From: Coniferiporia sulphurascens | Taxonomy: Eukaryota > Basidiomycota > Agaricomycetes > Hymenochaetales > Hymenochaetaceae | Reading direction: 5' to 3' | NCBI GenBank assembly: GCA_002794785.1 | Contig: NBBA01000020.1 | Location: 434,001-498,000, forward strand | Length of the DNA stretch: 64,000 nucleotides | In this document: positions 8,473-63,995 of the stretch, one piece after another | Numbering within the stretch: the stretch's first letter is position 1 | Layout: each line of letters begins with the position of its first letter | Notes under the pieces: generated by a model | Told to the model about the DNA's origin: nothing | Seen by the model: the letters and a program-made list of their open reading frames with translations, nothing else | The model's database searches: none | Translations under genes and position numbers: made by a program

Positions 8473-10230
8473 ATGTCTGACGGACAGAAACCAAACACTC
8501 GTGAGCAAACACGTTTGCAAAAAATTATCAGGATTAAGAATAATCGCTAATGAACTAAAAATAATGTATACACAGTCATCTACTATTGAAGAACTCGAAG
8601 AAAAAATTCAAAAAGCTAAAGATAGCAAAAGGTTAGTTGACCTAATAATTCAATGTAACCTAAGACAAATACCTATTAACAGAACAGAACAACAAATACA
8701 AGATCGAATTAACAGGTATGATAATTCTACCAAAGATGAAAAATTAAAAATTAAAACTGACTATAAAATGGAACTAACGAATCACGCTAAAGATTTAGGA
8801 ATATCAGACCAAGGAAAATCATCCGAAATCAGATATCGAATAAGTACGTATTTGGGCATATCAGATCCAAATGAAAAAGAACAATTTAAAATTGATAACC
8901 CCTATATTAAGCCAGAAGAAGAAAATGATAAGAAAGAAGATGACAATAAAAAAGAAGATAATGAAGAAGAAAATACCGAAGAATCCAAAAATAACCCATC
9001 ACGTGAGCCATCAGAACCATCTGACCCTGACGATTCAGATGCTAACGATACCGAGGAAGATGAACCGAGTATGGCAACTAAACTCGCGGAACTCCAGAAA
9101 TTCTTCGATGGAATCGAGAAACTCGATGGGCACAGAAACTACAAACTCTGGAACTACAGAGTCTGCAGTGCCATCGAGAGTGCAGGTTATGGTAACCTGC
9201 TCATTAACTCCCCAGGAACTGGAGAGACTGGTATATCAAGCGCTTTATATAATGGCATTATGTGCACTATGCCCGACAAAATATTGGCTTATTATCTTAA
9301 TTTCTCTAAAGATATTCCAGCATTACTCAAAGCGCTTGACGGACGATATAACATCCAGACAACAATTACAAAGGGTTTTAACGAGGCTGCCCTTTTTGAT
9401 ATCAGAGGTCATGTCAGCCATTTCGATGGAACACTTGATAACCTCAGCAATAAATACGAGGAACTCATAGCCCAAGGGGTAAAAGTTTCAGAGTCGACAT
9501 ATATATCGGCTATTATGAGGGCAACGCCCAAACAATATCAATACGTACTCACACAGAGTGAGTTATATATTAAAACGATTAACGAAACAAATCCAGACAA
9601 AGATGAAATCGAACTAACCCCTCAATTCCTACTAACGGCATTAAGAAATGCCTTCGAGGGGTGGCATAAAAATCATCAGAGGACAGGAGCGGCAGCTAAT
9701 CACCTGCCCAAGGACGAGCGGAATCACCCTTATTTTAGGGGCCGCGGACATGGTAACAGCCGCGGAGTACAGCCACAAGGTCGCGGCTATAGGGGCTGTG
9801 GAGGATATATGCGAGGACGAGGATGAGGGGGATATTCCCCTAACCAACAATCACACGTTATCAAGTGTTACAACTGTAATAAGTTAGGACACTTCAGTCG
9901 AGACTGCTGGGCGCCAAAAATGGAATGGACGAAGGCAGCTCAGAAGAAGAAAGAGGACGCGAATGACAAAAAAGGAAAAGGGAAGGAAACGGGTGCATCA
10001 GCGGCACTGACAACAACTGGGGCAAGTGCGGCCCAGGCTAAACATACCGCAGCAGCAGCAGCAGCAGCAACAAATGTCGCATCGAGCTCTCAAATCGAGT
10101 TAAGCGCCATAATAGGCCAAGGTGAAACCGCCTTTATAACCAAAATCGACGATAACAACTTTGACATGGGAGAATTCCCAATTTATTCTTATAATGACTT
10201 TCTTGATGCAATAGGAAATCACGATAGCGC
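8473..10230 (+). pseudogene. gag: copia copy 1 Gag region
   Basis: Nucleocapsid part of the polyprotein. ATG 8473 (MSDGQKPNTREQ) opens the frame, but a one-base shift in an A-rich run near 8525 moves the conserved Gag sequence into the frame seen from 8501 onward; copy 2 shows the expected continuous order. A highly acidic E/K-rich segment lies near 8910-9065 and an Arg/Gly-rich stretch near 9740-9825. A TGA at 9824 sits where an Arg codon of the RG-rich tract is expected. The CCHC zinc knuckle (CYNCNKLGHFSRDC) is at 9866-9907. It is followed by a Lys/Ala-rich linker into the protease. Confidence 0.85.
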
Positions 10231-13200
10231 CATGGAAGATGTGGATGACAATAATTTAGACATAAGCATTAACGCTATAACAACAGAAAAATTTGCTAAT
10301 AATGTTTATTCCTCAATGGATATAATCGATACTGGTGCAACGATACATTTAACACCATATTTAAATCGATTACGAAACACCTATAAAACCGACACAATAA
10401 CAATAACGGCCACAAATAAAACAACATTTATGGCAAACATAGTAGGGGATCTTAAGCTTTACATCCCCAACGGACACTCGGTAAGTGTCATAATATTATC
10501 AAACGTTTATTACAATCCTAAAATGAATATGACATTAGTCTCTCAAGGACTTCTATGTCAAGACGGCTATGAATTTATTTATAAAGAAAACAAATGTACA
10601 ATAAAGTATCCTAATGGATCTTTATGTGGAAAAATTAAAAACATAAATGGATTGTATAGTATATTTAATAACAATGTACAAGCGGCTACGAAAAATGTAA
10701 CATTATTTGAACTTCACAAAAAACTCGGGCATATAAGTTATGCTTACATAAAACGATTACTAAAAGAAAATCAAATTACAAATAATAAAATATCAAATTA
10801 TGATGAAACTCAATGCACAATCTGCCTAGAAGCAAATATAAAAAGAATGCAAATCCCAAAAATACGTATTACAAAGTTAGCCAAAAACTTCGGCAATCAT
10901 ATACATATGGACATATGGGGTCCAGCATCCACACATGCTATAGGAGGATATAAATATCTTCTAACACTTGTAGACAATGCTACAAGATGGATAAAAATGA
11001 TTTTATTAAAAACAAAAGATGAGGGCTTACATGCTTATACGACATGGGCTACAATGCTCAATACACAACATAATATAAAAATAAAAATATTACAAAGCGA
11101 TAACGATACAGTGTTTTTAAGTAAACAATTCACTGAATATTTGGAAAAACATGGAACAATACGAAAACTGACTGTTCACGATACGCCACAACAAAACGGA
11201 GTAGCAGAACGATCACATCAAACAATTTTAAATAACACATGAGTAAATCTGCTACAAGCAAAATTACCTCCAAGTCTATGGGGAGAAGCTGTAAAATACA
11301 GTACTTATGTTTACAATAGAACACCAAAGAGTGCTATTGATTTTAGAACACCATACTTTAAACGTTACAATGAAAATTATAATATCGACGATTTAAAAGA
11401 ATTTGGTCAATATTGCATAATACGACAAGAAGACGTTAATAAATTACAACCAAAAGGAATATATGCACAATGGCTAGGATTTGACGAAGAAAGCAAAGGT
11501 CATAGAACCTATCACAACAGAAAAATTACAGTCGAATGCAACTTACAATTTTTAGATTCTCCACCATCTAAAATTGAAGGGGAGAATATAACAGAAAAAC
11601 AAAACGAGCAAATAAAAGAATTAACAAAAGAAAGACCAATAAGAACTGTTAAACCAACAAAATGATCATTAGGTCTAAATTTTGACAAACAAAACACAGT
11701 CGCTTATCTTACGGAATTTAATCAATTCAATACGGAATTAATAGGCGATCCGAATTCATATCAATAAGCGATCAATAGAATTGACGCAAATCAGTGGATC
11801 ACGGCAATGAAAGAAGAAATAAAAACGTTAATCGAAAGATCTACATGGAAAATCATTGATCCACCAAAAGAAGCAAACATAATCGGAACAAGATTTGTTT
11901 ATAAAACAAAAAGATTAGCAAACGGAGAAATAGAACGTTACAAAGCAAGACTAGTAGTTCAAGGATTTGCCCAGAAAGAGGGTATAGACTACTATTCAAA
12001 CGACACATTCGCTCCAGTAGCACGATTAGCTACAGTAAGAACTATATTAAGTTGGAGCGCAACAAACAATTATGAAATTCACCAAATCAATATAAAATCA
12101 GCTTACCTATATGGTGAATTAGAAAAAGACGAAAACATATACATAAAACCACCACCAGGAAATTTAATCAAAATAAAACCTGGACAAATTTTAAAATTAA
12201 ATAAAGCCTTATACGGATTAAAACAAGCAGGCAGATGATGGTATAAAAAATTATCAGAAATATTAATAGGAATAGGACTAACACGAGCAGTCCACGATAA
12301 TGCAGTATTCCTAAGAAAAGTAAAAGGGAAAACAATTCTAATACTTTTCATACATGTTGATGACATAACCATATGTGGCTTAAATTTAATAATAATAAAA
12401 GCCTTTAAAGATGAAATAGGAAAACATGTAAAATTCACTGACAGAAACGATATACATTGGTTACTTGGTATTGAAATTGAAAGAAACCGAGAAGAAAGAA
12501 TTATAAAACTAAGACAAAAACATTATATTGATAATATAATAGAAAAATACAAATTAAAAGACGCTGCAACGGTACAAACACCAATGACACCTGGACAAGT
12601 ACTAAAATCACTTGAAAATCCAACTAATGAAGAATTAAACTTCATGAACCAAATACCGTATATGAATATGGTTGGAGCATTACGATATGCAGCAGATTGT
12701 ACGAGACCTGATATATCATTCGCAACAGGTCAATTTGCTAGGCATCTGAATAAACCTAGTATCGAACATTACAATGCAGTAAAACACTGTTTTAAATATT
12801 TAAAAGGAACAAACGATTATTGGTTAATACTCGGTGGAAAAGAATCAATTGAGTTAACCAGATACACTGATGCTGACGGCATGACACAAGAAGGCCATAA
12901 AGCAATATCAGGATATATATTCCAAATAGGAAATGCAACGACATCATGGTCAAGTAAAAAACAAGAATTAGTGTCACTATCAGTATGCGAAGCTGAACTA
13001 CAAGCTTTAACTCATGGAGTAAAAGAAGCAATATGGCTAAGAAGACTGGTTGAAGAGGTACTGCAGACCTTGGATACACCTACGAAAATATTATGCAATA
13101 ATCAAGCAGCCATAACAATAGTAAATTCAACTGAACAAAAATATATGCAACGAACAAAACATATTGATATTCGAAAAGATTTCTTATGAGATTATATTGA

Positions 13201-54548: not shown

Positions 54549-57508
54549 TTAGTATCTTCCACCTCTTCCACCGCCGGGACCACGATAAGGTCCGTAGTCT
54601 GGAGGAGGGCGCGCTAAAAAAACAAAGTGCGGGGAAATTTGAAATCAACAAATAGCGGAAGGTTGATAGAAGATAGTGTCTCACTTGCGCGGGGAGGTGG
54701 CGGCGGCGAGCGCGAGCGTGCCGTACTGGACCCAGGAATCACAGCGCCGCGGAAAAGTTGCATAAGATCGTCGGTACGGAAGATAGGACCTGTAGAAAAC
54801 AGAATAGTAACACAAGTGAGGATATATGTCTATCGAAAGTGGCCCAAGTCATAACATACCGTCGAACGAAGCTGGAGGAGGCAGCTGGCCAACAAACCAG
54901 CTCAGAACCTGTGGTATCACAGGTTTCGGTGGCTCATCGCGCTCCGGTGCATGGCGGCGCGGCGAACGCTCGCGCTCGCGGTCTCTTTCCCTGTCCACTC
55001 TATCCCTATCCCCCCGATCGAAACGTTCCCTGTCTGTCCATGCGGGGCTCCCGAAACGTCGGTTCCCCGCTGCGCCAGTCCATCGCTCGCGTGGAGGCGG
55101 CGAGACATCGCGCGCGCGCTTTAGGGGGGGCTTCGGCTCCTCGCGGCGGCGCTCCCGCTCACGCGGCTCTCGGTCCGGAGACGCGGCACGCTTGAAGCTT
55201 GTGCTGCCGCCGGAGTTGTATACTTGCGACTGCGTAGATGTCGGAGGCGCACCAGGTGCACCAACAGTGATCGCTGGGATAGTATCACTGCGCGAGAGTC
55301 CAGACTGAGCCTGGTTTTGCGCCTTGCGCGCCTCCGCAAGACCAAGGTCCCGATTTGCGATGCCATCAATACTTGAGTATAGGTGTCTTTGCGCAAACCG
55401 CTTGATAGGTGGATCTGCCAGGAGCATTTCAATTCGGGATTCGAATGGGAGAGAAGAAGTCAAATAGGAGCACACCATCGGGATAGACCTCCGCCATACG
55501 CTTCTCCAGCTTTAAAGCTGCCTCGAGGTCTCCGTATTGGTACTCATAGCGTGCCCAGCGTTCCCAAAGTGGGCGTGCTTTTTTCGGCGCGAAAGTCCCG
55601 ACTGTTTGCTCAAACAGGGCCCGAGCATCTGAGTAGCAAATTTAGTGTGTGGACTCGGCACGGCTCGGGACACGCACTGTTCTCATCATTTACTGACATC
55701 AGGAATGTCAAATAACGCACAACGAAGTCGATTTCGGTTTTGAAACGGTTTAGCGCGATACCTAAGATTCTGTTGGCTACGCCCGCTTGCTTCGCGACGT
55801 GGTACTCCATCAACGCGGCGGCTTCGAACACTTCCCAGGATACCCATTTATCCTTCCTTGCTTTTGAGAACACTGCTCGGCTTGCATCGAGGCCTTCGGA
55901 GCGCATAGCAAAGCGGATATACATAATGTACACCAAACCATACTCTTGCTTTCTGTCACGAAACTCTGTGATAGCAGGCGGCTCATCGGGCGTCGAAGAA
56001 GAAGACGAACTCGTCTTCGTTGTATATACGGATGCCTCCTTAGTAAGGCCACTACCATTCGGTGCATCTTTATTCTCAGCACTGTGCTCGGCGGTACCAG
56101 TAGGGTCGGGAATGGCATCTGAGAACGACGAGTTATTAGACACATTATTCGCCCTTGTTTCTGCAGCTTCGAGCTCTTCGTGCATTCTTTGCAGTAACTT
56201 GGTAAACGTCGCGTGCACTTCTGCGAAGTTCTTGGCCCGCTCGAGTGATTCCGCGAGCGCAAAGTTGAGGACGAAACTTGTAAGATTTGCTTCAACACCG
56301 GCCTTGAGGATCGTGAGTGCTTCCTCTGAGCGGCCAACGCCAGCGGTCCACGTATATGCCATGAACCAGATTTCGCTGAAAAAGCGCATGCGCACTACTG
56401 CCTTGCGGTATACACCTTGTAAGCGCGTCGTGAGTGCAGCTTTGTCTTCAATCTCAAGCGGGTTGCTCTCTTCCCACTTCAAGTAAGACTTCCACGCGCC
56501 GACAAGCGTCCTGTCTTCCTGACTGTACGTCGGTTTGTGCGGAAGGTTGAGAGGCGCACGCTTGCCGTTTGTCGCCACTGCAGGAGGGAGCAGAGGACCT
56601 AAATGCCGACGAAGCTCACGCAGTTTTGATCTCGCTTGCATGTGCGCTGCCGTAAGGTCTTGCAGGAATTTTTTGGCCTACGGAAACTTGTTTGCATAGA
56701 TCTTAATTCAGGACAATTCACGCACGATTATTTTGTTCAGACTATTCTCAAATGCTTCATAGTCTTTCCACAACATCTCGACATTTTCGATCGGGATTTG
56801 TACAGCGCGCTGATATATCTTGCGAAGAGTGTCCATTTTCTGTTGCTCTTCCCATGTTGAACTTGCTTCCCCGGACTTGACGAATTGAATGTACTCTTCC
56901 CATATACCGCTGCTGTCTTTGTCTTGACCGACATGTTGTAATGCAAAATCGTATGCTTTTGCCACCGTGTCACGCGTTGCAGGGCCAACATTCAGACGTC
57001 TTCCAAAGTGCATTAGTTTTGATGAAGATAGTAGGCGTCGCGCATGCTTACTGACCTCACATAGATTATATAGAACTTCCAAAGGTCGACCGAGGCGGAC
57101 GTTCTCAAGAAGCGCGCAAACAGAGATTCGGCGAAGGGAAATGTTGCTTGGTTGATCAAAAAGTGGTTTAGATACGAGATCTGGGCAGATGACTTCGGAC
57201 AAGGTGCATTTCAATACGAATTGTTTTCACGCAAGCAAAATCGGAATTGAGTAACGAAAGGAAGGGAAAACACGAACAGTATTAGGGTACTTTTCAAGCA
57301 ATGCTTCATACGTTTCTTTTATCTTCTCGAGGTCGCCTGACTCCTCTGCCATGTCAAGAAGCGCATTCCACGACGCTTCACTGTATGGGTTATCTTCAAC
57401 GGCTTTACGCAGTGCCGACCAATCCGACGGTGGGGGTTGCAAGTCCGCCTCAGTAGGCTCGGCCTTGACGTTAGCCTCACCAGATTGAGACCGCATTTCA
57501 GTATTCAT
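54549..57508 (-). CDS. RNA14: mRNA 3'-end processing protein RNA14 / CstF-77 (HAT repeats)
   Basis: Cleavage and polyadenylation factor subunit. ATG 57508 starts [18 protein letters not shown]; the first exon has HAT-type units ([39 protein letters not shown]). Next exon: [20 protein letters not shown] and [14 protein letters not shown], then [20 protein letters not shown] and [18 protein letters not shown], hallmarks of Rna14. Exons from 56641 downward continue with the HAT-C half ([35 protein letters not shown]), a Ser-rich insert near 56000-56150, then an Arg/Glu/Asp-rich tail near 54960-55190. The C-terminal motif [20 protein letters not shown] (55000-54780) corresponds to the monkeytail that binds Rna15 in yeast. 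Last exon ends at TAA 54549. About eight exons; complete. Confidence 0.88.
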
Positions 57509-58092: not shown

Positions 58093-61000
58093 ATGTCTGC
58101 TTTCGATGACGAGAATCAATCCTTCTCTGAATTGGAGGCAAATTCATCTTGGGCCTCTTTGGTCGTCGACCAGGTCCAAAATAACATTGAAGAGGATGAT
58201 TATACAAGCATATTAGGTCCTGATCCCGATGGAGAACTCCGGGATACATCAATCGAGACGTGAGTCTGAGCTTTTGATACATTAGTGAGCGATTGGTCTC
58301 ATGTTTCGCTTTGTTGCAACAGACATGAGAAATCGAAACAATACATCGACAGCAGGACTTTCGAACAAGTCCTACAAGTCATGGTACAGCAGGGTGCCGC
58401 TCTCGACAACCTGCGCGCAGAGCTGGATCATCTCCGCCAGGAGCACCGACGGGAACTCGAGCTTCGGGATACACGTCTCCAATTTGCCGAACAACAAGCA
58501 CAAATCATGCGCTCGGACAAGGAGAAAGCAATTGCTGCTCTGGAGGCCCTTCACACTGAATATACTTCTTTCAAAGCTTCGGGAAAGAGATTGTCCGAAC
58601 TATCCCCACTTTCCTTGATTGAGCACGAAAGGGTCATTCGACGGGTCGAGGACGACGCGAGGGCTCGAGTCGAACGAGCCGAAGCCGAGAAGTCACGCTT
58701 AGCCATTCAACTAACAAGGTTTCAGATCGAAGTTGCTCAATTGCGCAATCAGATCGACGACCGTACTTATCCCGAGGAAGTCCTCCAGGCTTTGACAATG
58801 AAGTTACAGCAGGCCGTTATGGGCAGCTGCCAGAGCGGTAAGACATCAATGCTCTTCTTCATTTTCACGCTAATAAGTTTCTTGTTAGCTCTTAACGAGG
58901 CAAGATTGGCCAAAGAGGTAGCATCATGATTGATTCATGTCCACTTTTCCTTAGGTAATCAATCGTATTATAGGCTCTATCCCACGCCGAAAGTCGCGTA
59001 ATGAAGTGTAACTGTCTTCATGTTCTCTATTGATGCCGGATGGATTACCCTGGGACTGAGATAACTTACTTTAGTCGAGTTGGAATGTGGCGAGCTTCGC
59101 ACAGTACGCAGTTGGCCTTCATTACCAAAGGAAATGCTCATATGAAGAGCATTTTAGGCTTGCAGCGATGCCCAAGAGAAGCTCACAGAACGTAAGGATG
59201 GCTATGATACTTTTGATTATTGTGGTTAATTTTGTTTCGTCAGTTAAATCAAAACAAGATCAGATGAACGCGGTACGTATAACCAATAGTTTTATTATTA
59301 TTGAAATCGTACTGAGTGGCTGGTTGTAAGGCCGCCTCTGCCAAATTTCAGGAACAGATAGAGCAACGTACGCATACGTTTGTTTTATGCAGCTTCCACA
59401 ATTTAACCTTTGCACAGTGAAGCTGCAAAATTCCGAAGTAGAGAAATCTCGCGATCTCGGTGCGTGTGCTCAATATGTACTACTCTTACGACAAATTTCA
59501 ACTTGTTTTAAACAAATTAGCTTTGTTAGATAATGAGCAGCTACGGTCGGTGAGTACAAATTCGGTCACCTTAATTACTCGGCGCCTCACGGAGTCCTTC
59601 ATAGACACTGCAAGAAACTGAAGCGCAGCACGCGGCTTGTACGCTAAATCCATTATAACCTAAAGCAGTACTAATATGCATTGCGAACCTCTGAAGTGGC
59701 TACAGATACTCAGCGAGTTGCACGGGTTTGCAAAGCTTCATGCGACTCATGAGTTGAAGATTGATAGCTCATACATTGCAGGCGCTCGCGGATGCCGAGG
59801 CGAGGCTTCTGGAAATCCAACGTTCTTATGAAACAGGTAAGCATGCAAGTGTCTTGTGTATAAGTCTAGTATGAACACGGACGTCGGCGGTTCCTGTTAC
59901 AGCATTGTCCGACAGCGAGCAACTGCGCACTGTAAGAGATTTCTAGATGAATTAGTGGAGGCGGAGCGCTTACATGCACCATTCAGTCACTAAAAGAAGC
60001 GGAAGAGAAGTACACTATTGGTATGCATACCACTTCATCGCGAATAATTCATCCTGACGGGAACTGATCTTTTTATGCAGAGACGCAACGCGCGAATGAG
60101 GTTAGCCACGTGCTTCCGTGCCGTTGAATATTTCTGAACCTAGAACACTTTTTCGTTCAGGCTATGGCGGCGGCTAGCGCTCAAGGTGAGTCTATTTTAA
60201 TTTTGAATTATGGAGATATTGACTTTCGATAGCAAAACAAACCGCCGATGATTTGAAAAGCGTACGTCATGCGTTATACTTTTCCTGGTTAACTGTCGGT
60301 ACTAATAGCGAATTAGGATTTGGAGAGCGTTACTGCCCGAGTCGATGAACGTGAGCATAGTTCGAACTATTGTCATTCTCCAAGGCTTAGAAGTCCGGCA
60401 GTGAATAAATCTTTGGACCAGGAGCGGCAGGTTCGTTTGATCCGAGCAAAACCTCACATTGACCTTTCCTCACAAATTCACTTTCAGGTTTCTAAGGATT
60501 CTAAATCACGTAGCGCGACTTGTAAGTACCTTGTTTCACGCGACCCGTCTATACAACGTGTATATTGATTACTTTAGTGGAGAGCGAATTAGAGGTGCTG
60601 AAAAAGGTTTGCTTGGCACTACAGTTCTACTTGCCGGCTGTCCCTGATCTCTGGTCTAGTCACATATTGAAGAGCTTGCCTCGAGGGACTTCACTATCTC
60701 TGAAGGTCTGTTTGTGCATGGTACAAAAATTTGTTCACTCGCTCAAAATAATTTAGCGCTTACGAGGATAATAAACCTCGAGGATGTAAGTCGCGACCTT
60801 CTTACCTGATCGAAACTTCTTTGTACCCTGATTGTGCAATCAAACAGAAACTTAATGAAACACAGCAAAACATGGATGTCACTACCAGTAGTCTACTCGA
60901 AGCCAACGAAAGATCAAGCCTCATGTCTACACGTCTTGCCGAGCGTAAATGCCTTCTATCTCTCGTCTATCCTTGTGTTGAAGTCTTTTTGTATAGAGGG

Positions 61001-63995
61001 TGACGCAGAAGCTGTCTTGAATAAGGTGAGAATACTGGCCCGGTCTTCAGGTGGAATTAACTCAGAGGTTTAAGGCCCTAACTGAGGCGAAAGAGCGTAA
61101 TAACGAACGTGGGTATTGCCTATATCAAGATTTTTTTCGTGGTTGACAAGGATGTAGTTCAAACCGAACTTGATCGTTCGATGAGAACATCGGAAGAGCG
61201 CGCAATAGGGCAAAACGAAGGTCAGTGATTATAGTAGATGGCAGCGACAGCCGGCTTATGAGCTACAAAGTTTCTGCTCAACTGGAGAAAACGCGCAGCG
61301 ATCTGGAAAATATCCTAAAAAGGAACGCCGACCGTCAGTTCGTGCAAGTTTTGAGCTATTCAAAACATCACTGATTTTCGCATGTTCGTTAGTGGAGCAT
61401 CAATTAGAAGAAACTGAGCGAAGCATCAAAAGCATTCAAAAAGATCGTGCAGGAGGTTCATTTATTTTCTGCTTAGTGGCTGGCCTAGTGGATACCAATT
61501 GACAATCCTATAGTCGAGGCCCGGTTGGAACAAGCGAATTCTATCATCGATGAAGCCAAGAAGGGGCGATCCCATGGTACATGTTTTATATCGTTTTTGT
61601 CACAGTGATATTAACGCTCCATTAGCGGAAGAGCAAATCAAAGCCACGAAGTCAACATTGCGGAAAGCTCAGAAAGAACGTCTCGAAGGTCAGCTTAGTT
61701 TACCCGGATGTACTTCGCAATCTGATCAGAATCAATAGCCACTTCACGTACGGGGCTAGTTGAAAAGGCTTTGCAAGACGCGTCTAGTCGGATTACAGAA
61801 GGTCAGTATTACCTTAATTAAAAAGACAGCCATCATAATGGTTGCTTTAGTGGAGCATGAACTGGCAAAGGCCCATGTGACTCTTGATAACGTCAGAAAA
61901 GAGCATACTGAAGGTTGGTCGTGCGATTATTTCGAAAACAGAAGGCTAACCTAGCGATGTATCAGAGATTTCGCGACTCCGGAATGAGCTTAGGGGTGTT
62001 ACGGAGCAACACACAGAAGGTGAGCATTACTTTTGCTCTTTTCTCAGATAATGCTTGTTAAGGGACGCAATAGCAAAAGCTCAGCTAAAGCAAATGAAAA
62101 TGACGATTAAGTCCGCCGACAAGGATCGTGCGGAAGGTTCGTCCCACACGGTCTTCGTTCAGATGATTGGCTAAAATCTTGTGCAGTCCAAGCTAAGCTC
62201 GAGCAACTCGCTCAGACAAAGGAGGCTCTGAAGGAGGCTAGGAAGGGCCGCACGGAAGGTACTAGCCAATTTCTGTTTGCGCCTTTAAACAATAAGCCAA
62301 TCCGCCTGTTTTTAGCTCTCCGTGAGAATGAACGTATCAGACTCATGTATGCGGAATCGGAAGGTAACCGTGCCGAGGGTAAGAGTTAAATGGTGATGTC
62401 GTTTTTTTTTGATTGCTAAACTTCATCCGATATCAGTTGTTATGGTCAATGAAGAGCTGGAACAGGTACTTCTTCCCATAGCGTTTTCCGTGGCGTTCGC
62501 TCATGTTCTTCGCAGAAAACGTCTGAACTGGAGCAGGAGCTACAGAACGGTAGGTGCCGACAAAACCCGAACTCACCATGATATGTGTTGACAACGTCCC
62601 GCTCTTGTAGCAAGGGGACAATTAGCGGAGACTAAAGGGGTGGGTACGTTAACATGTATGATTTTGAAGGTATTGACAAATAGCTTTAGTATCTTGATGT
62701 GATGGAGCGCCGTAACGAAGAACGTGCGTATCGACCTTTTTGTTGACCACACCAGCAAATACCCACTCATCCTTAATGTAGTCCTCGAGAAATCAAATAA
62801 TCTCTCCACGGTACATACTTGTCAGTTTTCATCGCATTGTATGCTTAAGGGACATTTCCAGCAACTTTCAAAATCCGAGGCTCGAGCCGAGAAATTACAA
62901 GCCGCGCGCCAAAAAGTTTGTTGGAAATATATCCTGGTCGTCTTAGTTGATAACATCCTTCCCCCTAGATGGCGGTGATATATGGCCTGTCGTACGATTC
63001 TCCGCTTGCCTCACCCGACCGACCTAATCCCCCAACCCGAGTCGGAAGTATTGCGTCGAGGAGCTCAACCTCATTGTCCCCGTCAGCGATCCCATCGCCT
63101 CTGCAGACACTCGACTTGACTGGTCCACCTGCAAAGCGCATGAGGCTCTCGAGGACACGACCCAGTATTGACTCGGGATTAATGCCGGGCTCATCCACGG
63201 CGGACACCATTTCTTTGGACGACATTGACGAGTTCCGTGTGCTACCGTCGACGCACGATGGAAGCGGAAATTCCGAATCGCCCGGATTAAATGCATATCT
63301 TTCTCCGGTATTAGAGATTCCCAAACAAGTTTTCGCGACATATGAGTTATTCGCCAAGGTCGCTTCGTGGCATGTGGGGGTGGGGGGACGCGCAGTGTGC
63401 GGACTTTGTTCGTAAGTGGTGGCCCCCCTTTAACTTTCGCCAAAGCTGACAACATCCGGGAATATTAGTCTAGAGAACTCGCACTTAGACAGTACACCTC
63501 ATTTACCGCTTCAGTTCGATCCACTTCTCTATCCCGCTCAGTTTTGGCATCACTGTGCAGTAGAACACAGAGTAGTTTGGAGACCTGATGTTGATAGCTT
63601 CCTCAGGGAAGAAGTGCAAAAATCATCAGTAAGTCATGGGTTTGAATTATCTAGACGCCGCCATTTTGATTGCCCTCCAATTATAGCCTCCAAAGTCAAT
63701 GTCGCCGATTGACGAGATGATCGAGAAGTTTGCAGCGCTGATATCGTGGAGGACGCCTGAAGGCCCGAGCGCCTGTGGGCTGTGCGAGTAAGTCATCGAT
63801 CTATCCTTTACTTTCTGCAGCCTTTTCGTCTTGGAACCTAACGTATTGTGCATTATCGCTAGGCTAGAAAACATGTACAAGGATCATGAGCCACGGCCTC
63901 GGTTGGACATTGACCCCGCCGTTCAGCCAAGGTTGTTTTGGAGCCATTGTCGCTCAGAACACAAGCGTTTCTACGAGCCCGATACACCAGCGTAG
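58093..63995 (+). CDS. Giant microexon coiled-coil protein with duplicated C-terminal zinc module (48 exons)
   Basis: My model sums to 3270 nt (1089 aa). Exon 1 58093-58259 is acidic; exon 2 58323-58837 is a long coiled coil (DNLRAELDHLRQEHRRELEL). Then 42 small exons follow, 58889-62915, nearly all encoding coiled-coil segments such as VEARLEQANSIIDEAKKGRSH. Sizes: 14 are 29 nt, 8 are 34 nt, 8 are 63 nt, two 42, two 46, two 54, and single ones of 16, 20, 25, 55, 72 and 97. 29-nt exons start in phase 1 and end in phase 0; 34-nt exons do the reverse; 63-nt exons are phase 1-1. The tail (62969-63411, 63469-63628, 63687-63787, 63863-63995) has a Ser/Pro-rich region and two copies of a CGLC...FWxHCxxEH module. 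Family unknown; probably a structural or regulatory scaffold. Confidence 0.75.
61158..61688 (+). repeat. Run of five 63-nt exons encoding 21-aa coiled-coil units
   Basis: Exons 61158-61220, 61271-61333, 61393-61455, 61514-61576 and 61626-61688 are each exactly 63 nt, phase 1-1. Residue pattern: V/L/A-E-x-x-L-E at the start, K/R-x-R-x-E/G at the end. A 42-nt exon (61760-61801) and another 63-nt exon (61851-61913) continue the series. Confidence 0.85.
62437..62723 (+). repeat. Two 63-nt units each split 29 + 34 by an intron
   Basis: 62437-62465 (29) with 62516-62549 (34), then 62611-62639 (29) with 62690-62723 (34). Each pair encodes 21 residues, the same length as the unsplit units just upstream. 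Confidence 0.85.
63340..63995 (+). repeat. Tandem CGLC / FWxHCxxEH module pair
   Basis: Module 1 has CGLC before the intron at 63412 and LENSH...FWHHCAVEH after it. Module 2 has CGLC before the intron at 63788 and LENMY...FWSHCRSEH after it. In both, an intron of the same phase (phase 2) cuts the codon right after CGLC. Cys/His spacing suggests one zinc site per module. Confidence 0.75.

Follow-up and report, generated by a model that had tools for sequence, protein, structure and literature searches.

The window analysed here, a 64,000-nucleotide stretch of Coniferiporia sulphurascens DNA (contig NBBA01000020.1, positions 434,001 to 498,000), contains a microexon gene on the plus strand that is modeled with 48 exons, from an ATG at 58093 to a stop codon at 63995, and that encodes 1099 residues. 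Exons 3 to 44 are 42 exons in succession, each 20-97 nt long, which together span 58889-62915, and the 43 introns touching these microexons are 47-67 nt in length with GT-AG borders in 43 of 43. A preliminary description of the same DNA had proposed 42 consecutive exons of at most 97 nt over 58889..62915 within a 48-exon model, together with introns of about 40-100 nt; an independent splice-site and codon model reproduces this exon chain almost unchanged and so confirms it, and the measured introns fall within the expected range. Three exons that had been predicted there from a 29-nt rule (60402-60430, 60757-60785 and 62782-62810) are also present in the model, and a homologous database protein model from Coniferiporia weirii (M0805_006438, hereafter P0001) matches them at 9/9, 8/9 and 9/9 residues. 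As judged from sequence, the reading of the locus as a coiled-coil gene whose coding sequence includes 42 microexons in a row is supported.

Table 1. Exons and exon blocks of the microexon gene (window coordinates)
Feature	Coordinates	Strand	Description
Exon 1	58093..58259	+	167 nt; conserved N-terminus MSAFDD..NQSFSELEANSSWASLVVDQVQN; 54/56 residues identical in P0001
Exon 2	58323..58837	+	515 nt; uninterrupted coil-like stretch without the 21-residue repeat
Array block I, exons 3-27	58889..61108	+	Mainly split units (29+34 nt)
Block I, exons 3-11	58889-58917, 58974-59007, 59075-59103, 59158-59191, 59244-59272, 59331-59367, 59418-59459, 59521-59549, 59605-59638	+	
Block I, exons 12-19	59697-59725, 59782-59836, 59903-59931, 59987-60020, 60081-60100, 60161-60185, 60233-60261, 60317-60350	+	
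Block I, exons 20-27	60402-60430, 60488-60521, 60578-60606, 60660-60705, 60757-60785, 60848-60944, 60997-61025, 61075-61108	+	
Array block II, exons 28-38	61158..62378	+	Unsplit 63-nt units, plus one 54-nt and one 72-nt variant
Block II, exons 28-38	61158-61220, 61271-61333, 61393-61455, 61514-61576, 61626-61688, 61739-61801, 61851-61913, 61966-62019, 62074-62136, 62187-62258, 62316-62378	+	
Array block III, exons 39-44	62437..62915	+	Split units again: 62437-62465, 62516-62549, 62611-62639, 62690-62723, 62782-62810, 62862-62915
Exon 45	62969..63411	+	443 nt; adjoins the rod; Ser/Pro-rich linker, basic NLS-like (nuclear localisation signal-like) cluster PPAKRMRLSRTRP; first CGLC module begins
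Exon 46	63469..63628	+	First zinc-finger-like module continues (FWHHCAVEH)
Exon 47	63687..63787	+	Linker, then second module begins (CGLCE)
Exon 48	63863..63995	+	Remainder of second module (FWSHCRSEH), stop

The initial model was obtained with a dynamic programme over splice sites and codons that starts from the ATG at 58093, with site matrices set by hand. Exons of 9 nt and 3 nt and the last 3' exons of the first-pass model were replaced by hand, and four acceptors were reset by the residues of P0001, to AAG at exons 8, 12 and 27 and to TAG at exon 33. The model's own site scores prefer the alternative acceptor at exons 8, 12 and 27. A gene finder whose codon statistics come from 20 further loci of 10 kb each (17,029 codons), with a per-intron cost and hand-set splice matrices, independently gives 37 nt for exon 8 and 63 nt for exon 33, which matches the model, and disagrees at exon 12 (20 nt) and exon 27 (43 nt). 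Exon 10 is possible as 29 or 20 nt; the gene finder gives 20 nt and the P0001 residues fit this length. Additionally, intron 19 could be retained in frame. The junctions at exons 8, 10, 12, 16-19 and 27 are provisional, unlike the array as a whole.

The preliminary description had also pointed to the closing of the full model in frame. The model does close, but this is weak as support, since dinucleotide shuffling of the region leaves a sequence that can also be threaded in frame in 209 of 300 trials, on average with 47 exons. Frame closure is rejected as evidence for a gene, and support must therefore come from conservation, composition and length quantisation. The same comparison, in which P0001 had not yet played a part, gives the real chain a score of 488, while the closing shuffles average 222 (standard deviation 20.5, maximum 287.5), which corresponds to a z of 12.9. 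Lengths of 29, 34 or 63 nt occur in 29 exons of the real chain, compared with 1.75 on average and at most 6 in the shuffles. The T content is 0.181 in the exons versus 0.341 in the introns.

At three intron costs, the gene finder calls one gene over 58093-63995 with 47, 47 and 46 exons, in which up to 24, 24 and 16 successive exons are no longer than 100 nt; these runs are interrupted by retention of intron 19 and, at the strictest cost, of intron 37. The corresponding longest runs are 12, 11 and 8 among 190, 202 and 200 control predictions of at least 450 nt, which are crude two-strand predictions that serve as an outlier check only. Without an intron cost, the gene finder over-predicted microexons everywhere, with runs of up to 55 in other genes, and this version was superseded by the one with costs. 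On the minus strand inside the array, predictions are confined to fragments, with coding sequences of 93 and 141 nt, and additional short predictions fall over its flanks.

Mapping of the intron phases between exon 2 and exon 44 reveals 27 phase-1 introns, 15 phase-0 introns and none in phase 2. Successive phase-1 introns are exactly 63 nt of coding sequence apart in 18 of 26 spacings (random placement: mean 0.48, maximum 5), and 21 of 26 spacings are multiples of 21 nt (random placement: mean 3.26, maximum 10); the spacings other than 63 nt are 42, 45, 54, 66, 72, 75, 84 and 126 nt. Of the 15 phase-0 introns, 14 lie 29 nt after a phase-1 intron and the remaining one 20 nt after it. A 29-nt and a 34-nt exon together make 63 nt, that is, 21 residues or three heptads, and other exons are 63 nt and undivided, while exon 25 (97 nt, or 34+63 nt) looks like a fused pair. 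The units that have no second intron form one contiguous block, exons 28-38, with exon 9 as the exception. What the preliminary description had taken as a 29-nt rule is thus correct as to the 29-nt exons, which are real, but the rule itself is one half of a 63-nt unit of 21 residues. The exon lengths are quantised to the protein repeat, the unit boundaries share one phase and the units are mutually homologous, as in a repeat-sized exon array.

The protein encoded by the array comprises 594 residues, with no proline and 11 glycines, and would form a rod approximately 88 nm long if fully helical. In threads through shuffled sequence (37 of 60 closed), proline averages 22.7 per 594 residues, and the heptad contrast reaches at most 0.298, compared with 0.458 in the array. 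With this composition and a heptad pattern, the array does not display the Gly-X-Y triple-helix repeat of the collagen family. Comparisons between units were made with 19 of them: 8 of 27 were dropped for other lengths, and the last unit, of 28 residues, was trimmed to 21. In these units, positions 1, 5, 8, 12, 15 and 19 are hydrophobic in 70% of cases, versus 15-48% for the six other registers. The coiled coil suggested in the preliminary description is borne out when the heptads of the spliced protein are examined, by the hydrophobic register, the heptad contrast and the lack of proline.

The pairwise similarity of the units is 7.67 in register versus 3.24 after whole-heptad rotation, and 0 of 2000 rotations reach the former value; when the columns flanking both intron positions are removed, the values are 4.61 versus 1.88 (p=0.008). 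The nine unsplit units are mutually more alike than under random labels (p=0.0024; 0 of 18 circular shifts). Autocorrelation at lag 21 is present in the array, but the coil encoded by exon 2 exhibits none (z=0.18), and two kinds of coil are seemingly joined in one protein, that of exon 2 without the 21-residue repeat and then the array.

Five homologues, all protein models from Hymenochaetaceae, are recovered by the orthologue search that the preliminary description had proposed; the searches are restricted to relatives with short exact words in common, and a wider distribution is possible. The search that found P0001 and P0002 scored the 7999 candidates sharing most words, and the closest protein among these is P0001 (78% identity), from a genus that belongs to the Hymenochaetaceae. 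P0001 covers 36 of the 42 microexons: of 593 microexon residues, 506 align, including two isolated residues in exons 19 and 29, and 421 of the 506 are identical, with 33 of 43 junctions ungapped. The four Sanghuangporus proteins, P0002-P0005, are more distant, with 36-38% identity to P0001 and, for P0002, 32% identity to the window protein. Lag 21 ranks first in the autocorrelation of the window protein, P0001, P0002 and P0005.

As read by eye, 20 additional residues immediately precede ALAEAERL in P0003 and P0004, as would result if a 60-nt phase-1 intron corresponding in position to window intron 13 had been retained; in P0005, one stretch is consistent with retention of a 50-nt phase-1 intron. 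Such protein models suggest that intron positions may be shared with Sanghuangporus. The public orthologue models themselves look faulty or variable, in that P0001 is without whole units and P0003-P0005 contain retained-intron-like stretches. A second copy of the gene was not found in the genome (39.3 Mb in 31 contigs) with P0001, for which all 12 matches with E<=0.1 lie inside the microexon gene; the sole further row, C18:525778-526131, has an E of 0.29 and lies in a 406-residue open frame.

In light of these results, we propose that the locus is a real protein-coding gene and that its rod was built by old tandem exon duplication, a joint claim to which we assign a probability of roughly 0.8. 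The gene model is demonstrated by the sequence tests, and the conservation, the quantised exon lengths and the register-specific similarity of the units are observed directly; from these we infer both the origin of the array and the way in which it is spliced. The duplicated element would be a small intron-bounded unit, 63 nt in length and equal to 21 residues or three heptads, and some units would bear a second intron at +29 nt, which yields 29+34-nt exon pairs and leaves split and unsplit versions in blocks. It is the 63-nt unit that indicates tandem exon duplication rather than microexons of the schistosome MEG or neuronal kind. Because the units begin and end in phase 1 and are mostly whole heptads, the addition or loss of a unit would keep the reading frame and, usually, the coiled-coil register. 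The introns of 47-67 nt could be recognised by intron definition, which would allow exons of 20-34 nt to be spliced without special machinery; in the available part of PMC2397502, intron definition is thought to be the main mode of splicing in fungi.

However, several observations weigh against this proposal. Four acceptors in the model were placed with the help of P0001, which is itself a database protein model, and when the gene-finder lengths of exons 10, 12 and 27 (20, 20 and 43 nt) are used instead, hand counts drop to 16/26 for the 63-nt spacings, 18/26 for the multiples of 21 nt and 12/15 for the +29 offsets. Eight of the 27 units are not 21 residues long (14, 15, 18, 22, 24, 25, 28 and 42). 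Exons 3-4, 18-19 and 28-29 have no counterpart in P0001; what is absent there amounts to one, one and two whole units, each from phase 1 to phase 1, and may represent either real loss or missed prediction. For the ten split units, mutual similarity does not significantly exceed that under label shuffles (p=0.16), and lag 21 is not the top lag in Sanghuangporus P0003 (lag 42 first, 21 second) and P0004 (lag 7 first, 21 third). In the intron-intron scores, the introns are no more alike than shuffled introns, so that duplicated introns are not visible and any duplication must be old, presumably old enough for the introns to have lost their mutual resemblance. Additionally, the same part of PMC2397502 links intron definition to longer exons, which the microexon gene does not have.

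The lack of shared intron sequence is also compatible with 21-residue repeats that were at first uninterrupted and into which introns were inserted later and independently at the same site of each repeat, by proto-splice-site or introner-like gain; a basidiomycete gene that gained introns rapidly and massively is the topic of PMC3584928. Such a history requires dozens of independent events, each at one of two set positions in a set phase (27 introns in phase 1 and 15 in phase 0), however, and recent introner copies should look alike, whereas the intron-intron scores equal those of shuffled introns; the confinement of the units without a second intron to exons 28-38, bar exon 9, also argues against it, and we consider insertion unlikely. 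The units might instead be regulated cassette exons whose in-frame skipping yields rods of differing length. The phase-1 introns at the unit boundaries permit the skipping of whole units, and the P0001 model is without three such groups of exons, but this database model may merely have missed them, and cassette exons are rare in fungi and protists (mean cassette fraction 3% in the available part of PMC2397502), which makes this explanation improbable as well. That the 42-exon chain is a threading artefact, with introns and exons so short that nearly any sequence closes, as the closing shuffles would allow, is hardly credible in view of the chain score, the count of canonical-length exons, the conservation in P0001, the recovery of the array by the gene finder with intron costs and its proline-free composition with strong heptad contrast.

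It is conceivable, though doubtful, that the locus is an exon-quantised coiled-coil gene outside animals and that whole phase-symmetric units of 21 residues are added or skipped as rod length evolves in this fungal family and is perhaps tuned through splicing, in which case species and isoforms would differ by whole units.

Beyond the rod, the protein ends in two tandem CGLC...FWxHCxxEH modules (window 63390-63995), which are 40% identical over 42 residues and in which the CxxC...HCxxEH spacing was read by eye. No C2H2-like zinc-finger profile scores above the cut-off, and the resemblance to zf-Di19 is weak (E=0.014, 16.1 bits versus a cut-off of 27.5); Pfam searches with the spliced protein, with each of its two ends, with P0001 and with P0003 yield no family above the cut-off, and no PDB chain is obtained at E<=0.001 for the five-protein alignment. 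The basic cluster of exon 45 has the sequence PPTKRRRISKQP in Sanghuangporus, at the same place in P0002-P0005, and we take it to resemble a classical nuclear localisation signal. Tentatively, we infer that the protein may be a nuclear rod-shaped scaffold or tether bearing two putative zinc-finger-like modules. Against both the nuclear and the scaffold role stands the nature of the evidence, a localisation-signal pattern and a weak resemblance to zf-Di19.

Many or very small exons are known in metazoans from the schistosome MEG genes and from neuronal microexons; the former encode small secreted proteins and the latter are single exons under regulation, and neither constitutes a structural repeat array. 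Closer in design are the fibrillar collagen genes, with an exon length of 54 bp, which share the use of small repeat-sized exons. The fungal gene is unrelated to them in sequence, encodes a heptad coiled coil instead of Gly-X-Y, and has a 63-nt unit that is often split again at +29 nt; its unit boundaries are in phase 1. The small exons of collagen are tied to an 18-residue ancestral unit in the available part of PMC4450265.

Among fungi, the P450 genes of Phanerochaete chrysosporium provide another case of microexons in a white-rot basidiomycete, with exons coding for 2-10 residues and frequent introns of 45-55 bp; these microexons are spread over families, and the available part of PMC1184071 describes neither repeat-sized exons nor long microexon runs. 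In Cryptococcus neoformans, exons are as small as 1 bp, and CNAG_03355 (Tco4p), with 42 introns, is the most intron-rich gene reported for the genome; it is a hybrid histidine kinase, for which repeat-sized exons are not mentioned in the available part of PMC3990503. The nank (NACHT-ANK) genes of Tuber melanosporum carry multiple codon-sized microexons, which serve alternative splicing in NACHT-ankyrin proteins, not in a coiled coil (available part of PMC4986451), and a microexon switch is reported in Trichoderma (available part of PMC11121469). The preliminary description knew of no comparable fungal coiled-coil gene, and none with heptad-sized (three-heptad) exons appears among the open-access literature matches listed, as far as their available text goes, which is weak evidence of absence. 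What seems to be new is the repeat-per-exon build in a fungal heptad coiled coil, fungal microexons and collagen-type exons being already known.

The gene would extend the repeat-per-exon architecture of collagen to a fungal heptad coiled coil, and its chain of 20-97-nt exons provides a natural test of how far intron definition reaches. A comparison of genomes across the Hymenochaetaceae could provide a date for exon duplication in a coiled coil. Caution is advisable with database models of genes of this type, as illustrated by the units absent from the C. weirii model and the retained-intron-like stretches in some Sanghuangporus models.

Elsewhere in the window, an open frame on the minus strand (55610-56641), upstream of the microexon gene, strongly matches Suf (suppressor of forked), and Copia-like retroelement open frames at 8501-11242 contain a sub-threshold gag match, an integrase core and a Pol beta-barrel domain.
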